Assembly: GCF_900313065.1 (NCBI RefSeq)
Contig: NZ_OMPU01000001.1
Span: 169 to 64,168, forward strand
From: Kiloniella sp. EL199
GTDB taxonomy: Bacteria > Pseudomonadota > Alphaproteobacteria > Kiloniellales > Kiloniellaceae
Direction of reading: 5' to 3'
DNA length: 64,000 nt
Positions 57,443 through 62,691 of this stretch are shown here, piece after piece. A program made the translations under genes and the position numbers. Position 1 is the first letter of the stretch. Each line of letters begins with the position of its first letter. The notes under the pieces were generated by a model. It saw only the letters and a program-made list of their open reading frames with translations, did no database searches and was not told where the DNA came from.

Positions 57443-58207
57443 ATGCGTCTGAGCGAGAGACAAAACCAAATATTGGAATGGACCAGCCGGGAAGATGCCC
57501 TAAGCATTGAAGACCTGTCTAACCATTTTCAGTTAAGTACTCAAACCATTCGCAAGGATATAAACGCCCTCTGCGAAACCGGGTTGCTCAGACGTGTACA
57601 TGGTGGTGTCTGCTTACCTTCAGCTATTGAAAACCTGTCTTTCAACACAAGACAGGTGATGAATGCAAAAAACAAAGACGAAATAGCGCAAGCTGTTGCA
57701 GATCAGATACCGGACGGTTCCACAATTTTTCTAGGTATTGGGACAACCGTCGGTTCTGTAGCCAATGCCCTTCTCAAGTTTCAAAACTTGCGTGTACTGA
57801 CCAACAACCTCAAAGCAGCGGCTATCCTCTGTAACAACGAAAATATTGATACACATGTCTCTGGAGGACGTCTGAGACAGAGCGATCACGATTTGGTCGG
57901 GGTTGAAACTATCCGCTTCTTTTCCTCTTTCAAAGCTGACTACGCTATTGTTGGGACAGGCGGATTAGATCCTGCGTATGGCATGATGGACTTCAAGCCT
58001 GATGAAGCCTATGTGACGCAGTCTATTCTGGAAAATAGTCGTAAAAAGATTCTTGTCGCAGATAATACAAAATGGAACAGACCTGCAAATGTAAAGGTCG
58101 CTTCCTTTAAAGATCTCGATCTGATGGTAACCGATCTTTTACCGGACAATAATGTTCGTATGCAACTGAAACTATCAAAATTAAAAATAAAAGAATGTAG
58201 CGTTTAA
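57443..58207 (+). CDS. DeoR/GlpR-type regulator of the ugp operon
   Basis: 254 residues. HTH RLSERQNQILEWTSREDALS (20 residues), then HFQLSTQTIRKDINALCETG (20 residues), with the effector domain FLGIGTTVGSVANALLKF, VLTNNLKAAAIL, HVSGGRLRQSDHDLVG and VADNTKWNRPA. It resembles E. coli GlpR, which responds to glycerol-3-phosphate, consistent with the upstream ugpBAEC genes. The candidate operators are the paired TTCA/TGAA palindromes before ugpB. Confidence 0.88.
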   Translation: MRLSERQNQILEWTSREDALSIEDLSNHFQLSTQTIRKDINALCETGLLRRVHGGVCLPSAIENLSFNTRQVMNAKNKDEIAQAVADQIPDGSTIFLGIGTTVGSVANALLKFQNLRVLTNNLKAAAILCNNENIDTHVSGGRLRQSDHDLVGVETIRFFSSFKADYAIVGTGGLDPAYGMMDFKPDEAYVTQSILENSRKKILVADNTKWNRPANVKVASFKDLDLMVTDLLPDNNVRMQLKLSKLKIKECSV

Positions 58208-58322
58208 TTCGGCCCTAACATGAATTCCATATTTTAAATCAAGCGATTACGACGCGCACAAGGTCATGAAACGCCCCAAGAGCTCTGCCAGAATGACAGA
58301 GCTTATAATGCTGATTTTGTAA

Positions 58323-58678
58323 CTACGCCTCAACAAGCCCGACGCGACGCCCGTCGGGGTCATTAAAAAGACCGATTGTCGGTCCACCGGGAATATCCAT
58401 TGCCTCCAGAACAATGCTTCCCCCCTTTTGAACGGCCCGCTTCAACGTTTCTTCTACAGAAGGGACTTTTCAACATAAAAAGTCAGATGTCCCCCAGTAT
58501 CGGCCATATCTTCGCCAATACCACCATTAATTCCCTTCTCATCGCTCTCGGTATCAACCATGCCGTAGTTCATAGGGTTATCAACATCAATATCCCACCC
58601 AAAGAGGTCACCATAAAAAGCTTGTGCCTTTTCTGCGTCTTCAGAGATAATTTCAAAATGTACGACCGGGCATCCCAT
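58323..58678 (-). pseudogene. VOC/glyoxalase-family protein, broken by a frameshift
   Basis: Read on the minus strand from the ATG at 58678, the protein starts MGCPVVHFEIISEDAEKAQA, AFYGDLFGWDIDVDNPMNYG and GGHLTFYVEKS, then hits a stop at 58454. In the next frame the sequence continues as VPSVEETLKRAVQKGGSIVL, EAMDIPGGPTIGLFNDPDGR (each 20 residues) and ends RVGLVEA with a stop at 58323-58325. The break falls in a four-base A-run (T-run 58467-58470 on the plus strand). One extra A would restore a normal protein of about 118 residues (YVEKVPSVEE). This is a homopolymer indel: either an assembly error or a very recent mutation. Confidence 0.82.
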
Positions 58679-58739
58679 GTATTTTCCCTTCTTATCTTTT
58701 AAGTGTTTTAAGCATTAGAGTAATGCCAAATGGTTAGGT

Positions 58740-59231
58740 TTATTTCCCCGCAAGAACTTCATCGAGACAATCATAGGAGCTTTCCCATCCTTTGCGATGT
58801 AGATCACATTGTTCTGTGTCAGCAAAAATCTTTTGAGAAAACTCCATCAAGGTTTTCTCACCTTCATCATGGAGCAAGATTGTCACTTCGGTCTCATGCC
58901 CGCGAATTCCATCATGCCCAATCCAAGCCCACGTGAAGACCAACTTGGAAGGATCCTCTACCTCAGTGTAAATACCGCCAACTTGATTAGAAGAACAATC
59001 TCCGCCCGTATTTTCCAATATTGTTTTCCACTGACCGCCGACACGAAAATCCATCTCACAGAGGCTACACTCACATCCTTTAGGGCCCCACCAAGTTTTA
59101 AATACCTCGGGTTGGGTCAATGCTTTGAAAACCGTTTTCCTTGGTGCGGCAAAGCGACGTGTAATTTCCAAGGTCAAATCAGAAGAAGAAATTTGATCAG
59201 AAAAATTTTCCCTATTTCTATGTTCAGTCAT
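58740..59231 (-). CDS. AHSA1/SRPBCC-domain protein
   Basis: A 163-residue START-like fold of the activator-of-Hsp90-homologue type: LTLEITRRFAAPRKTVFKAL (20 residues), WWGPKGCECSLCEMDFRVGG (20 residues) and TLMEFSQKIFADTEQCDLHR (20 residues), ending GWESSYDCLDEVLAG. Bacterial members form frequent pairs with ArsR regulators. The gene follows the ArsR gene with no intervening base (ATG directly after TAG). Its ligand is unknown. Confidence 0.88.
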   Translation of the reverse strand: MTEHRNRENFSDQISSSDLTLEITRRFAAPRKTVFKALTQPEVFKTWWGPKGCECSLCEMDFRVGGQWKTILENTGGDCSSNQVGGIYTEVEDPSKLVFTWAWIGHDGIRGHETEVTILLHDEGEKTLMEFSQKIFADTEQCDLHRKGWESSYDCLDEVLAGK

Positions 59232-59576
59232 CTAATCTGATCCCTCTTCAAAATGCCCTTCTGCCACCATCGCCTTCAAGGTATTATCAAGCTTATCAAA
59301 ACTGCTTTCCCAAAAATGATTGTATTGCTCCAGCCACTCAGACGCACCTTTCAACGGCTTTTCCTGCAAAATACAGCGACGCAACTGACCATCTTTTTCT
59401 TTGCGGATAAGTCCAGAACGTTCAAGGATCTTCAGATGCTTTGTGATCGCCGGGGCAGACATCTCAAAAGGCTGAGCCAACTCCCCCACAGTTGCTTCCC
59501 CCTTCGACAGTCTTAATAGAATTGCCCGTCGCGTTGGGTCAGATAGCGCAAAAAATGTATCGCTTAGATTATCCAT
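59232..59576 (-). CDS. ArsR-family regulator paired with AHSA1 gene
   Basis: 114 residues with a winged HTH: FALSDPTRRAILLRLSKGEA (20 residues), VGELAQPFEMSAPAITKHLK (20 residues), ILERSGLIRKEKDGQLRRC and a C-terminal EWLEQYNHFWESSFDKLDNT (20 residues). It lacks the CxC metal motif of ArsR/SmtB sensors, as expected of the SdpR-like subclass that travels with SRPBCC genes. It probably represses its own operon. Confidence 0.9.
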   Translation of the reverse strand: MDNLSDTFFALSDPTRRAILLRLSKGEATVGELAQPFEMSAPAITKHLKILERSGLIRKEKDGQLRRCILQEKPLKGASEWLEQYNHFWESSFDKLDNTLKAMVAEGHFEEGSD

Positions 59577-59662
59577 ACCTTAACCAAAAAGAAAATTAAC
59601 TAACAAGTTAATTATTATATTTCCAAGCTCACGTCAAACAAATCAAAATACTCACCTAGACA

Positions 59663-61039
59663 TTACATCTGAAACTTGGTTGCCTGAGGCACACTGTTGA
59701 GAAGTTCGACCACTGCTGTGAGGGATTGCTTAAGAAGGGTATCGTCAATGTTCGTCAGATTAATACGCACCCCCGATGGTGCGGAAACGGGGTCAACAGC
59801 GAAGATGCTTGAGGGTGAAACTCTAACGCCTCTTAACCCGAGAGTTTCAGCAAACTCTTCGGCTTTCCAAGTACCCTTCAAAGGGATCCAAAGATGAGAC
59901 GTTGCATCGTTAAAGCTGTAGGAAATATCTCCAAGGCAAGTAGCTGCCTGTTTGAGTAAGTTGGCTGTTATTGTATTGCGCTGCAATTCCAATTCATTCG
60001 CTGTGCCATCCTTGATCCAGTGGCATGCAACCTCGGCCATCAGAGGTGGTGCCATCCAACTGGTCGTCTGACTTGCGGCCAAAAACTGTGACAGCAATCC
60101 TTGCGGCGGCATTAAAGTACCAACACGCAGCCCCGGAGAAATGGTTTTCGACAAGCTACTGATATAAACAGTGCGTTCAGGGTTATAGGCTGCGATCGGC
60201 TTGAAATCAGACTTAGGACTCCTTGGATTGACATCATCTTCAATGACAAAGAAACCGTATTGATCTGCCATTTTTGCTATTTCAGCAATCCGCGCCTCAG
60301 ACATCGTTGCGGTGGTCGGATTATGGGCAAAAGGCATACAATAAAGGGCTTTGACAGAATTTCTGAGGCAAGCCTGCTCCACAGATTGCGGCACCAAACC
60401 GCCTTCGTCCAAAGCTACGGGAACAAGATTAATGCCAAAGAAACGTGCATAGTTTTTGATACCAGGGTAGGAAAGCTCTTCAACCAGCACAGTATCACCG
60501 GGTGATGTCAACGCCCCCAAAGCTGCTGTTAGCGCCTGTTGCGCCCCACCTGTTATAATTAAGCGTTCAGGGTTAGCATTAAAACCGCGTCCCCCAAGCC
60601 ACTCACCCAGAACTTCACGATGGCGCAACAGCCCCTGACTTTGACCATACTCAAGCATGCCATCAAGATTACTATCTTTGCCAATCTCAATGAGTGAGCG
60701 CCGTAATTGTGCTTCCAGATTAATAAAAGGGGGCGTGTTACGACTAAGGTCAACAGCCCCTGTTTCATCCAATGCATCCTGCCTGTACTGCTCATTATCC
60801 CTGTGGGCGCGAACAAAGCTCCCCCGTCCCGTTTGCTTGACAAGCAAGCCTCGCTGTTCCGCAAGGTCATAGGCACGCAAAACCGTCCCCACAGTAACAC
60901 CTAGCTCATCCGCAAGGTCGCGCATTGGGGGAAGCTTTTCCCCCTCCACAAGGCGTCCTTGTTCAATATCAAGCGCCAAACAGTCCGTTATTGCGCGATA
61001 GACTGATACTTTTGAATCAAGATTTTGTGGCACCCACAT
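59663..61039 (-). CDS. MocR-type regulator (GntR HTH fused to aminotransferase fold), PdxR-like
   Basis: 458 residues. The N-terminal GntR winged helix is LPPMRDLADELGVTVGTVLR (20 residues), then AYDLAEQRGLLVKQTGRGSF (20 residues). A long PLP aminotransferase fold I domain follows, with the lysine in VYISSLSKTISPGLRVGTL. MocR proteins such as PdxR sense PLP and control vitamin B6 genes. This one is divergent from pdxJ across 103 bases with duplicated dyads, one overlapping its own start codon. The start at 61039 (ATG) is immediately within repeat 1. Confidence 0.88.
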   Translation of the reverse strand: MWVPQNLDSKVSVYRAITDCLALDIEQGRLVEGEKLPPMRDLADELGVTVGTVLRAYDLAEQRGLLVKQTGRGSFVRAHRDNEQYRQDALDETGAVDLSRNTPPFINLEAQLRRSLIEIGKDSNLDGMLEYGQSQGLLRHREVLGEWLGGRGFNANPERLIITGGAQQALTAALGALTSPGDTVLVEELSYPGIKNYARFFGINLVPVALDEGGLVPQSVEQACLRNSVKALYCMPFAHNPTTATMSEARIAEIAKMADQYGFFVIEDDVNPRSPKSDFKPIAAYNPERTVYISSLSKTISPGLRVGTLMPPQGLLSQFLAASQTTSWMAPPLMAEVACHWIKDGTANELELQRNTITANLLKQAATCLGDISYSFNDATSHLWIPLKGTWKAEEFAETLGLRGVRVSPSSIFAVDPVSAPSGVRINLTNIDDTLLKQSLTAVVELLNSVPQATKFQM

Positions 61040-61056
61040 TGTTACCCCAACAATGT
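61036..61056. promoter_or_regulatory. MocR operator candidate 1, overlapping the mocR start codon
   Basis: ACATTGTT, spacer ACCCC, AACAATGT: perfect eight-base arms. The start codon of the regulator (61037-61039) lies inside it, so binding would repress its own expression. Confidence 0.7.
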
Positions 61057-61112
61057 TTTTATTGACTAGAACAATAATAAGAACATTATTCTAGTGAATA
61101 CTACAACAATTT

Positions 61113-61133
61113 ATATTGTTACCATAACAATAT
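61113..61133. promoter_or_regulatory. MocR operator candidate 2, next to pdxJ
   Basis: ATATTGTT, spacer ACCAT, AACAATAT: perfect eight-base arms, nine bases before the pdxJ ATG at 61143. It is nearly identical to candidate 1 (core ATTGTT-ACC-nn-AACAAT). AACAAT also recurs at 61070 and 61105, giving starts at 61049, 61070, 61105 and 61126 with 21-bp spacing inside each pair. Confidence 0.7.
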
Positions 61134-61142
61134 GAGGAAAAA

Positions 61143-61883
61143 ATGACTGTTTTAAGCATCAACCTAAACAAAGTTGCGCTGTTACGTAATCAACGGGACA
61201 TTGATTACCCAAGTATTACCGGAATGGCAAAGATTGCCTTGGCAGCAGGTGCAGGCGGTATAACAGTCCACCCGAGACCGGATCAACGACATACACGAAA
61301 ATCAGATGTCTATAACCTATCCAGAATGCTTCGCGAAGAATATAGCGCACCTATAGAGTTCAATATCGAAGGTAATCCGACAGAAGAATTCATGCAGCTC
61401 GTTGCAGATACCAAACCAGAGCAAGTCACGTTGGTACCAGATGATCCGGACCAAAACACATCTGACCATGGCTGGGATATTCGCAACAACAAAGACAGAC
61501 TCAAAGAGATCGTTGATCGGCTTCACGCCCAAAATGCACGCGTATCTGTTTTCATTGATCACGATCCTGATGTCGCCCTTGCTGCTGCAGAAATAGGTGC
61601 TGATCGTGTCGAGCTTTATACTGGCCCCTACTACGAATGTTTCTTTCGGGATGATCGGGAACAGGTACTTTCCTTGTACAAGAACACAGCGATTACCGCC
61701 CGCGATGCAGGCCTTGGTGTTAATGCCGGACACGACCTAAATTTGGATAATCTCGCCCATTTTCTACAAGCAATTCCCTGGACAGATGAAGTGTCTATTG
61801 GTCACGCGCTCACCGCTGATGCCCTGATCTATGGAATGGACGGTGCGATCAAGGCCTATCTTGCTGAAATAGAAAAGAAATGA
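61143..61883 (+). CDS. pdxJ: Pyridoxine 5'-phosphate synthase, stand-alone copy
   Basis: A 246-residue PdxJ TIM barrel condensing 1-deoxyxylulose-5-phosphate with 3-amino-1-hydroxyacetone phosphate. Motifs: LSINLNKVALLRNQRDIDYP (20 residues), AGGITVHPRPDQRHTRKSDV (20 residues), IEFNIEGNPTEEFM and VNAGHDLNLDNLAHFLQAIP (20 residues). The usual TLVPE segment reads TLVPDDPDQNTSDHGWD, a variant. It is not next to recO or acpS as in housekeeping copies. Divergent linkage to a MocR regulator suggests an inducible or conditional copy. Confidence 0.92.
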   Translation: MTVLSINLNKVALLRNQRDIDYPSITGMAKIALAAGAGGITVHPRPDQRHTRKSDVYNLSRMLREEYSAPIEFNIEGNPTEEFMQLVADTKPEQVTLVPDDPDQNTSDHGWDIRNNKDRLKEIVDRLHAQNARVSVFIDHDPDVALAAAEIGADRVELYTGPYYECFFRDDREQVLSLYKNTAITARDAGLGVNAGHDLNLDNLAHFLQAIPWTDEVSIGHALTADALIYGMDGAIKAYLAEIEKK

Positions 61884-61892
61884 TGACTGAAT

Positions 61893-61943
61893 AAGATGCC
61901 TGATCTCTATAAGCTAGGCTGTAGCTATACAGTCAGGCATCTT
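61893..61943 (+). terminator. Terminator after pdxJ
   Basis: AAGATGCCTGA (61893-61903) / TCAGGCATCTT (61933-61943), perfect 11-bp outer stem with an inner AGCT-containing hairpin, followed by TT. Ten bases after the pdxJ stop. Confidence 0.8.
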
Positions 61944-62008
61944 TTGGGTTAAACTACTGGCATGTAAAGAACTTACTGGAAATATATTCTTTCGAGGCAT
62001 AAAACCAA

Positions 62009-62422
62009 ATGACTTCCAGTCCCTTGCCAGATAACGTTGCTCCTGCATATGAAAAATATTCTGCGGACCTACGCAAAAAGCTTCTCGACCTCAGGGAAAT
62101 AATACTGGATACAGTCGCTGGTATTCCTGATGTCGGTCCGGTTGAGGAAAGCTTAAAATGGGGGCAGCCAAGCTTTCTGACGACAAAAAGTAAAAGCGGC
62201 ACAACAATTCGTATTGATAAAACAGGTGATGATCAGGGGCAATACGCTCTTTATGTGCATTGTCAGACCAACCTGCTTGACCAGTTTCGCGAGCTATATC
62301 CAACAGAATTCACATATAGCGGCAACAGGGCAATCTTGTTCAAAATAGAGGATGCTCTCAAAACACAAGCACTACAGCACTGTATCTCTCTGGCACTGAC
62401 TTATCATTTGAAAAAGAAATAA
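62009..62422 (+). CDS. DUF1801-domain protein
   Basis: 137 residues matching the YdhG/DUF1801 fold: LREIILDTVAGIPDVGPVEE (20 residues), SLKWGQPSFLTTKSKSGTTI (20 residues), YALYVHCQTNLLDQFRELYP (20 residues) and GNRAILFKIEDAL. Small basic-patch proteins of unknown biochemistry. It converges on the metal-sensor gene, whose stop is two bases away. Confidence 0.85.
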   Translation: MTSSPLPDNVAPAYEKYSADLRKKLLDLREIILDTVAGIPDVGPVEESLKWGQPSFLTTKSKSGTTIRIDKTGDDQGQYALYVHCQTNLLDQFRELYPTEFTYSGNRAILFKIEDALKTQALQHCISLALTYHLKKK

Positions 62423-62424
62423 CA

Positions 62425-62691
62425 TCAAAGATACTTTGTAATCTCTTTCAACTCATCCAGAGTTTGGCTGGATCGCGCATCTTGATCACCCTGCCCCAAA
62501 CAATGATCAATATGATCATGAATTAACAGCCTCTTGGCTTTAACCACAGCTTTTTCAACGGCATATAACTGTTGCGCGACGTCAACACAGGATCGTTCTT
62601 CTTCGAGCATTTCCATAATCTTATGCATATGACCATGCGCCCGTTTAAGACGATTGATAACCTGTTTATGCGATGCGTGCTGTGTTGACAT
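62425..62691 (-). CDS. CsoR/RcnR-family metal-sensing repressor
   Basis: An 88-residue DUF156 four-helix DNA-binding protein: VINRLKRAHGHMHKIMEMLE (20 residues), EERSCVDVAQQLYAVEKAVV (20 residues), KAKRLLIHDHIDHCLGQGD. Metal ligand positions C35, H60 and C64 give the C-H-C set of CsoR (copper)-type sensors, with H5/H21 possible additional ligands. FrmR/RcnR variants are alternatives. No target exporter gene is adjacent, although upstream sequence to 62808 may carry the operator. Confidence 0.85.
   Translation of the reverse strand: MSTQHASHKQVINRLKRAHGHMHKIMEMLEEERSCVDVAQQLYAVEKAVVKAKRLLIHDHIDHCLGQGDQDARSSQTLDELKEITKYL

Follow-up and report, generated by a model that had tools for sequence, protein, structure and literature searches.

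A MocR-type regulator and two conserved palindromes at the pdxJ gene of Kiloniella: a predicted local vitamin B6 switch

The mocR-pdxJ locus and its paired dyads

The marine Kiloniella sp. EL199 (genome of 4.18 Mb in 19 contigs, 99.88% complete) carries the gene of a MocR-type regulator on the minus strand and pdxJ, encoding pyridoxine 5'-phosphate (PNP) synthase, on the plus strand, and the two genes are divergently transcribed from an intergenic region of 103 bp. The features are given below in positions of the window, meaning the whole stretch of 64,000 nucleotides that was analysed.

59663..61039, minus strand: mocR, MocR-type regulator of 458 aa, with an N-terminal GntR winged helix and an aminotransferase-I/II domain
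61038..61054, no strand assigned: dyad 1 (candidate operator O1), core ATTGTTACCCCAACAAT, 17 nt, kept in 12/12 divergons, in one of them with one mismatch
61062..61089, plus strand: predicted pdxJ promoter, TTGACT (61062-61067), 16-bp spacer, CATTAT (61084-61089), called from a scan plus conservation
61115..61131, no strand assigned: dyad 2 (candidate operator O2), core ATTGTTACCATAACAAT, 17 nt, half-sites exact in 12/12 divergons
61143..61883, plus strand: pdxJ, PNP synthase of 246 aa (PF03740, 2.8e-82), single match in the genome
61893..61943, plus strand: inverted repeat 3' of pdxJ, AAGATGCCTGA (61893-61903) and TCAGGCATCTT (61933-61943), read by eye, possible terminator

The seven proteins encoded between 57443 and 62691 that were scanned with profiles are MocR and PdxJ together with a DUF1801 protein, a metal-sensitive repressor, an ArsR-type, an AHSA1 and a DeoR-type protein. 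PdxJ exceeds the curated cut-offs of NF003626 (343 bits, cut-off 222) and TIGR00559 (231.7 bits, cut-off 192.75) and matches the PDB entries 6w6a (E 4.5e-64) and 1m5w (E 5.1e-38). The inverted repeat behind pdxJ is absent from the output of our scanner, the loop limit of which is 8 nt. In MocR, Pfam places a GntR domain at residues 14-76 (2.3e-13) and an Aminotran_1_2 domain at residues 96-441 (2.6e-21), both above cut-off, and judged by its sequence the protein is a member of the MocR subfamily of GntR regulators. Its best NCBIfam model is EhuR with 401.3 bits (cut-off 480), and PdxR reaches 203.4 bits (cut-off 320). As both scores are below their cut-offs, neither name can be assigned, and a PdxR-type regulator, which an earlier note on this DNA had brought into consideration, is not supported, EhuR being the nearer of the two models.

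Dyad 1 has arms of 8 nt (61036-61043 and 61049-61056) that are 100% complementary and separated by 5 nt; with its full arms it overlies the mocR start codon (CAT, 61037-61039), and O1 lies just upstream of the predicted -35 box of pdxJ. The arms of dyad 2 extend over 9 nt (61113-61121 and 61125-61133), which is equivalent to 8-nt arms with a 5-nt spacer. O2 follows the predicted start of pdxJ transcription and precedes the ribosome-binding site, its core ending 11 nt ahead of the ATG of pdxJ (61143). The earlier note had described this pair as near-identical dyads with perfect 8-nt arms and a 5-nt spacer, one over the mocR start and one before pdxJ, and we could confirm its coordinates as well as the four copies of AACAAT at 61049, 61070, 61105 and 61126, which make up two pairs 21 bp apart. 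Dinucleotide shuffling of the 116-bp region (60,000 rounds) produced at least one dyad in 22 cases and two dyads in none, and two AACAAT pairs at 21 bp were likewise never obtained. The two dyads are real and not a product of chance.

Strain EL199 has two exact copies of ATTGTT-N5-AACAAT in its genome, both of them in the mocR-pdxJ intergenic region, so that the search for further exact dyads elsewhere in the genome, which had been proposed before, returned none. Across the eight near-complete Kiloniella genomes there are 27 exact sites, 16 of them in mocR-pdxJ intergenic DNA (two per genome), and the reversed control pattern gives 10 in total; the ninth, partial Kiloniella genome has one exact site, outside this intergenic DNA. 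Looser sites show no excess elsewhere (ATTGTTACCNNAACAAT with up to two mismatches, 23 hits compared with 22 for the reversed sequence as control). A wider regulon was considered and dropped, as three one-mismatch sites (L004, L005 and L006) fall within unrelated ORFs, which by eye are gyrA-like, permease-like and LysR-like.

The predicted pdxJ promoter is the only sigma-70-like site reported in 60900-62050. Since shuffled sequences yield 2.5 such sites on average, the scan by itself proves nothing and the call takes its weight from the conservation of the TTGACT and ACATTA blocks described below. Assuming that transcription starts about 7 nt after CATTAT, the centre of O1 would be at about -50 and that of O2 at about +27. 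On the mocR strand the sigma-70-like scan of 60900-62050 reported no promoter. On this strand (61036-61056, minus) the centre of O1 reads GGGG; it precedes the ATG of mocR by a few bases and may also act as the mocR ribosome-binding site.

Conservation of the divergon, its regulator and its target

We searched 61 genomes of the order for the mocR-pdxJ divergon and found it in 12, namely in eight of nine Kiloniella genomes and in four of seven genomes of f7, another family of the order (G053, G054, G055 and G057). The Kiloniella genome without it is a partial one of 1.5 Mb with no pdxJ match. By their MocR, the relatives of strain EL199 are K. majae, K. spongiae, two strains of K. laminariae, K. 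litopenaei, an uncultured Kiloniella MAG and a MAG named uncultured Rhodospirillales bacterium, and the f7 MocRs are about 50-55% identical to that of strain EL199 over the aligned part. Contig ends cut mocR in G053 and pdxJ in G055. At L093 (G054:C59) mocR is split over two frames, by a frameshift or an assembly error, and both dyads are intact. Both dyads are present in 12 of 12 divergons. A divergent mocR-pdxJ unit with paired candidate operators, as put forward in the earlier note, is supported.

The two dyads are 77 bp apart from start to start at 11 of the 12 loci and 76 bp apart at one, their half-sites are exact at all loci except for one position (L095, O1), and O1 is found 24 bp from TTGAC in every case (12/12). 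The distance between O2 and the pdxJ start codon varies among the 12 loci (3, 8, 11 or 12 nt), and this leader serves as an internal control, showing that indels are tolerated in this DNA while hardly any are found between the dyads. In four cross-group pairs of Kiloniella and f7 loci the inter-dyad DNA is 38-45% identical compared with 76-88% for the dyads; in the 11 loci that have the same length, invariant columns number 27 of 34 in the dyads and 20 of 60 between the dyads, where TTGACT and ACATTA are the longest invariant blocks. The 12 loci are not independent, since the sequence of this stretch is nearly the same at three of the four f7 loci and five of the Kiloniella MocRs share 93-100% identity, so that the weight of the conservation is carried by a few deep splits. 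At the f7 loci translation of mocR probably begins at an in-frame ATG within O1.

The inner AACAAT copies behave differently from the dyads. The copy at 61070 is kept in five of the eight Kiloniella loci (lost in L066-L068) and the copy at 61105 in six (lost in L066 and L067), and both are missing from the four f7 loci. As they are not conserved, the 21-bp phased repeats, which had been read before as a design element, were rejected as part of the operator: by this comparison the conserved feature is the dyads, and the phasing is confined to close relatives.

In the MocR tree, which carries a long-branch warning, the divergon proteins of all 12 loci group together (100/99) apart from 31 other MocRs, and all members of this clade were found divergent to pdxJ with the same dyad pair. 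The PdxJ tree, also with long branches, groups the f7 divergon pdxJs with four MocR-free pdxJs (95/81) and places those of Kiloniella elsewhere (89/72). A common origin of the mocR-pdxJ pair was therefore not retained, and as the two trees disagree we make no claim of either transfer or common descent for the pair. Residues K298, D268, N240, Y191 and R425 are invariant in 15 aligned MocRs, and we take them to have the roles of PLP lysine and cofactor residues. K298, the candidate PLP lysine, corresponds in the alignment to the lysine in the S-K-x-x-x-P-G-x-R segment of class I aminotransferases, and R425 aligns with the arginine holding the alpha-carboxylate in aminotransferases and is the candidate arginine for a substrate carboxylate. 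The usual cofactor motif is D-x-x-Y; its Tyr position is occupied by Asn in the Kiloniella MocRs and by Tyr in L094 and L095. In four genomes, G007 (G007:C13 = L145:2560-2576), G008, G011 and G012, the start of a second Kiloniella MocR with about 30% identity carries ATTGTTCAWTGAACAAT, and in G007 a gene that by eye is LysE-like lies on the other side of this MocR. Cross-talk through the half-site common to both Kiloniella MocRs is possible.

Each of the eight near-complete Kiloniella genomes has one pdxJ match, and each time it adjoins mocR. pdxA is present in nine of nine and pdxS in none of nine Kiloniella genomes, and by gene content the DXP-dependent route is the sole recognised de novo B6 pathway of the genus. 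The PdxJ of Kiloniella belongs to the same enzyme family as that of the canonical alphaproteobacterial pdxJ-acpS locus, but whereas in G015, a genome of the same family, spoT, a DUF2062 gene, pdxJ and acpS follow in series (names by eye), this place is empty at the three Kiloniella acpS loci examined. At these loci, L099, L100 and L101, spoT leads directly into acpS, which rules out there the second pdxJ for which the earlier note had advised looking. The single-copy pdxJ, the empty place at acpS and the lack of pdxS together make this pdxJ the only recognised PNP synthase gene. Its being single does not refute regulation; it places the only recognised PNP synthase under the proposed switch. 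A second pdxA-like gene above the family cut-off is found in four of the nine Kiloniella genomes (G000:C19:393009-393965 and counterparts in G009, G010 and G012) and is perhaps of the pdxA2 kind.

Across the order, TIGR00559 scores set a group with the pdxJ of strain EL199 (205-237 bits, one partial at 101) apart from the other pdxJs (252-289 bits), and low-scoring pdxJs without the divergon occur in seven other genomes (G001, G002, G005, G006, G039, G051 and G056). One of these, G006, belongs to the family of strain EL199 and has no MocR match adjoining pdxJ. Its pdxJ leader (L069, G006:C5) matches O2 at 15 of 17 positions, the match ending 9 nt ahead of the start codon, and the start of this O2-like site follows TTGAC at a distance of 52 bp, as in L095 (53 bp in the other divergons). 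The best O1 candidate of G006 has 5 mismatches in 12. Among 33 non-divergon loci tested for an O2-like site, 28 reach at most 12/17 and four could not be placed, G006 with 15/17 being the remaining one. The site could be either a remnant or served by a MocR encoded elsewhere; the genome is 91% complete in about 750 contigs, and an unlinked MocR gene could be missing from it.

Beyond the order, a class sample of 385 genomes contains pdxJ at E <= 1e-40 in 25 genomes and MocR at E <= 1e-95, with the best four candidates per genome scored, in five; two genomes in each set are Kiloniella. The 23 other pdxJ loci have no MocR match and no exact dyad in their flanks (up to 1.5 kb, some shorter), and the three other MocRs (41-42% identity) have no pdxJ match in the examined flanks. 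Among the PLSDB plasmids 634 records have a MocR match, all below 60% identity, and the four examined have no pdxJ annotated alongside; 16 records have a pdxJ match, and at the three places examined no MocR is annotated alongside, the gene tables being incomplete in both cases. The plasmid pdxJ relatives of Rhizobium sp. SL42 (L149) and Agrobacterium rubi (L150) are flanked by the gene of a regulator with a sugar-binding domain and by a HAD-type gene, and a gene for tagatose-bisphosphate aldolase is nearby, in what looks like a catabolic cluster and not B6 synthesis.

Proposed control of pdxJ and alternative readings

We propose, with a probability of roughly 0.55, that the locus is a local and dedicated B6 switch in which a PLP-binding MocR represses pdxJ and mocR from two palindromes flanking the promoter. 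A MocR dimer would sit on each of the 17-bp palindromes O1 and O2, on either side of the predicted pdxJ promoter. Occupied O1, over the mocR start codon, would shut down mocR itself, and protein on O2 would block pdxJ transcription from about +27, possibly jointly with O1 (about -50) via a short 77-bp loop. PLP would be bound via K298, so that loaded MocR would hold the palindromes and lower pdxJ and the loss of PLP would release them, as in end-product repression. Taken singly, binding of the O1 and O2 dyads by the Kiloniella MocR is very likely, and MocR probably controls pdxJ. That PLP would be the signal of the switch is rather likely, and we also lean towards repression as the sign of the control over pdxJ.

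PLP as co-repressor would fit the behaviour of PdxR, whose PLP-loaded form is reported to bind inverted repeats in preference to direct ones (PMC5320631 citing Tramonti 2015). EnuR, the MocR regulator of ectoine use that is also named EhuR or EutR, becomes a constitutive repressor when its lysine is mutated and PLP cannot be taken up by the protein (PMC8739950). Such logic would shut down PLP synthesis in PLP-starved cells and is thus not transferable unchanged, so that the MocR described here must respond differently from EnuR if it serves homeostasis. The spacing of 77 bp corresponds to about 7.3 helical turns, which is not a whole number and weakens a simple loop; it suggests a constraint and not a plain in-phase loop. 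A compact repression loop, in which two dimers 77 bp apart trap the pdxJ promoter and wire a MocR PLP sensor to the DXP-dependent pathway, is a tentative idea that we regard as doubtful. If true, control in this kind of MocR operator would reside in how far two separate palindromes are apart and not in repeats inside one site.

The layout is also compatible with the opposite sign, as the PdxRs that have been characterised activate in the apo form, PLP acting as anti-activator (PMC5320631), and a position of O1 near -50 would suit an activator. PLP-free MocR at O1 would then recruit RNA polymerase to pdxJ and repress mocR, PLP would cause its release, and O2 would serve mocR or tighten binding. 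This logic has been reported for PdxR in B. clausii, C. glutamicum, L. monocytogenes and S. pneumoniae, a divergent position of MocR genes relative to targets that they activate is common (PMC5320631), and the 24 bp between O1 and TTGAC are kept at 12 of 12 loci. However, O2, downstream of the predicted start and before the ribosome-binding site, is kept as strictly as O1, G006 has an O2-like site and TTGAC at the usual distance with neither a good O1 nor an adjoining mocR, and the operators are inverted repeats, which are preferred by PLP-loaded and not by PLP-free PdxR (PMC5320631). We consider activation possible but unlikely. Still less probable is a MocR that controls pdxJ in response to an amine reacting with the bound PLP, as in GabR or EnuR, for example 4-phosphohydroxythreonine, an amino-acid intermediate of the DXP-dependent pathway. 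The invariant K298 and R425 would fit such an effector, and EnuR, the nearest named relative by profile, acts via an external aldimine with its inducer (PMC8739950), but the same residues are invariant in five MocRs of other clades and give no pointer to an amino-acid ligand here.

The dyads might also be bound by another MocR of the cell, with the neighbouring one acting elsewhere, and the second Kiloniella MocR with the common half-site at its own start in four genomes would be a candidate. We regard this as very improbable, since at all 12 loci found the dyad pair is accompanied by a MocR of the divergon clade and the genome of strain EL199 has no exact site elsewhere. The least credible reading takes the dyads as RNA hairpins controlling the translation of pdxJ and mocR, and not as protein sites. 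For the pdxJ leader the folding score is z = -2.26, with a 12-bp hairpin at O2 directly before the ribosome-binding site, and a K. laminariae strand with both dyads reaches z = -2.77 with O1 pairing to O2, but O1 is upstream of the predicted pdxJ start, and the mocR-side leader (z = -0.96) is little better than shuffles. In six arm pairs at 12 loci there is no compensatory change; the letters are kept, the sole change (L095, O1) breaks a pair, and the outer extension of the O2 stem of strain EL199 is lost in L066. Identical letters in both dyads and the half-site known from EnuR fit a protein.

The repression switch that we prefer would concern a subject with few precedents, as transcriptional adjustment of PLP synthesis in DXP-route bacteria seems little described, and for vitamin B6 in Kiloniella we found no literature. 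At this locus a genus has its only recognised gene for PNP synthase together with a dedicated adjoining regulator and well-defined candidate operators, a small system that could be tested in vitro.

Comparison with known MocR systems

Like the gene of PdxR, the regulator of pdxST, pdxK and pdxU, the Kiloniella mocR is divergent from a PLP-synthesis gene and likely autoregulated. It differs in the PdxR score of its product (203 bits with a cut-off of 320), in its target, the DXP-dependent pdxJ, and in its operators: mixed direct and inverted repeats are described for B. clausii and C. glutamicum and inverted repeats for L. monocytogenes (PMC5320631), compared with two far-apart inverted repeats in Kiloniella. 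The PdxW and PdxQ regulons (Suvorova and Rodionov 2016) are similar in that mostly proteobacterial MocRs were tied to PLP metabolism by comparative genomics, but the genes given for them are pdxO types, pdxH, acetyltransferases and exporters and not pdxJ (PMC5320631). The PLP-pathway targets named for MocRs in the same paper include pdxST, pdxK, pdxU, pdxO and pdxH, and its main text contains pdxJ once, merely as the name of a pathway (PMC5320631), which agrees with the view of the earlier note that pdxJ is an unusual MocR target. In the 2016 survey 20% of MocR motifs consist of two inverted boxes, and more than a third of the regulators analysed are linked to B6/PLP metabolism and PLP-dependent enzymes (PMC5320631), so that the general kind of system is already known. 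pdxJ as a MocR target, promoter-flanking palindromes at a kept distance and this MocR clade were not met in the accessible parts of PMC5320631, PMC9997740 and PMC8739950; the supplementary tables of the 2016 survey could list them.

By profile the nearest named relative is EnuR, which has in common with the Kiloniella MocR the architecture and the conserved PLP lysine and provides its nearest NCBIfam model. The Kiloniella protein remains below the cut-off of this model (480 bits) and is encoded next to pdxJ, and no genes for ectoine import or degradation were found among the seven neighbouring proteins scanned (57443-62691). The reported EnuR operator, ATTGTnnnnnnACAAT, has a spacer of 6 compared with 7 in the Kiloniella dyads, and the R. 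pomeroyi sites overlap the -35 and -10 regions whereas the Kiloniella dyads flank the predicted promoter 77 bp apart (PMC8739950). In its use of two operators at the target promoter and of the half-site ATTGT/ACAAT (PMC8739950), EnuR resembles the arrangement predicted for Kiloniella. An EnuR half-site beside a MocR that adjoins a cofactor-synthesis gene should be useful for reading the specificity of MocR regulators.
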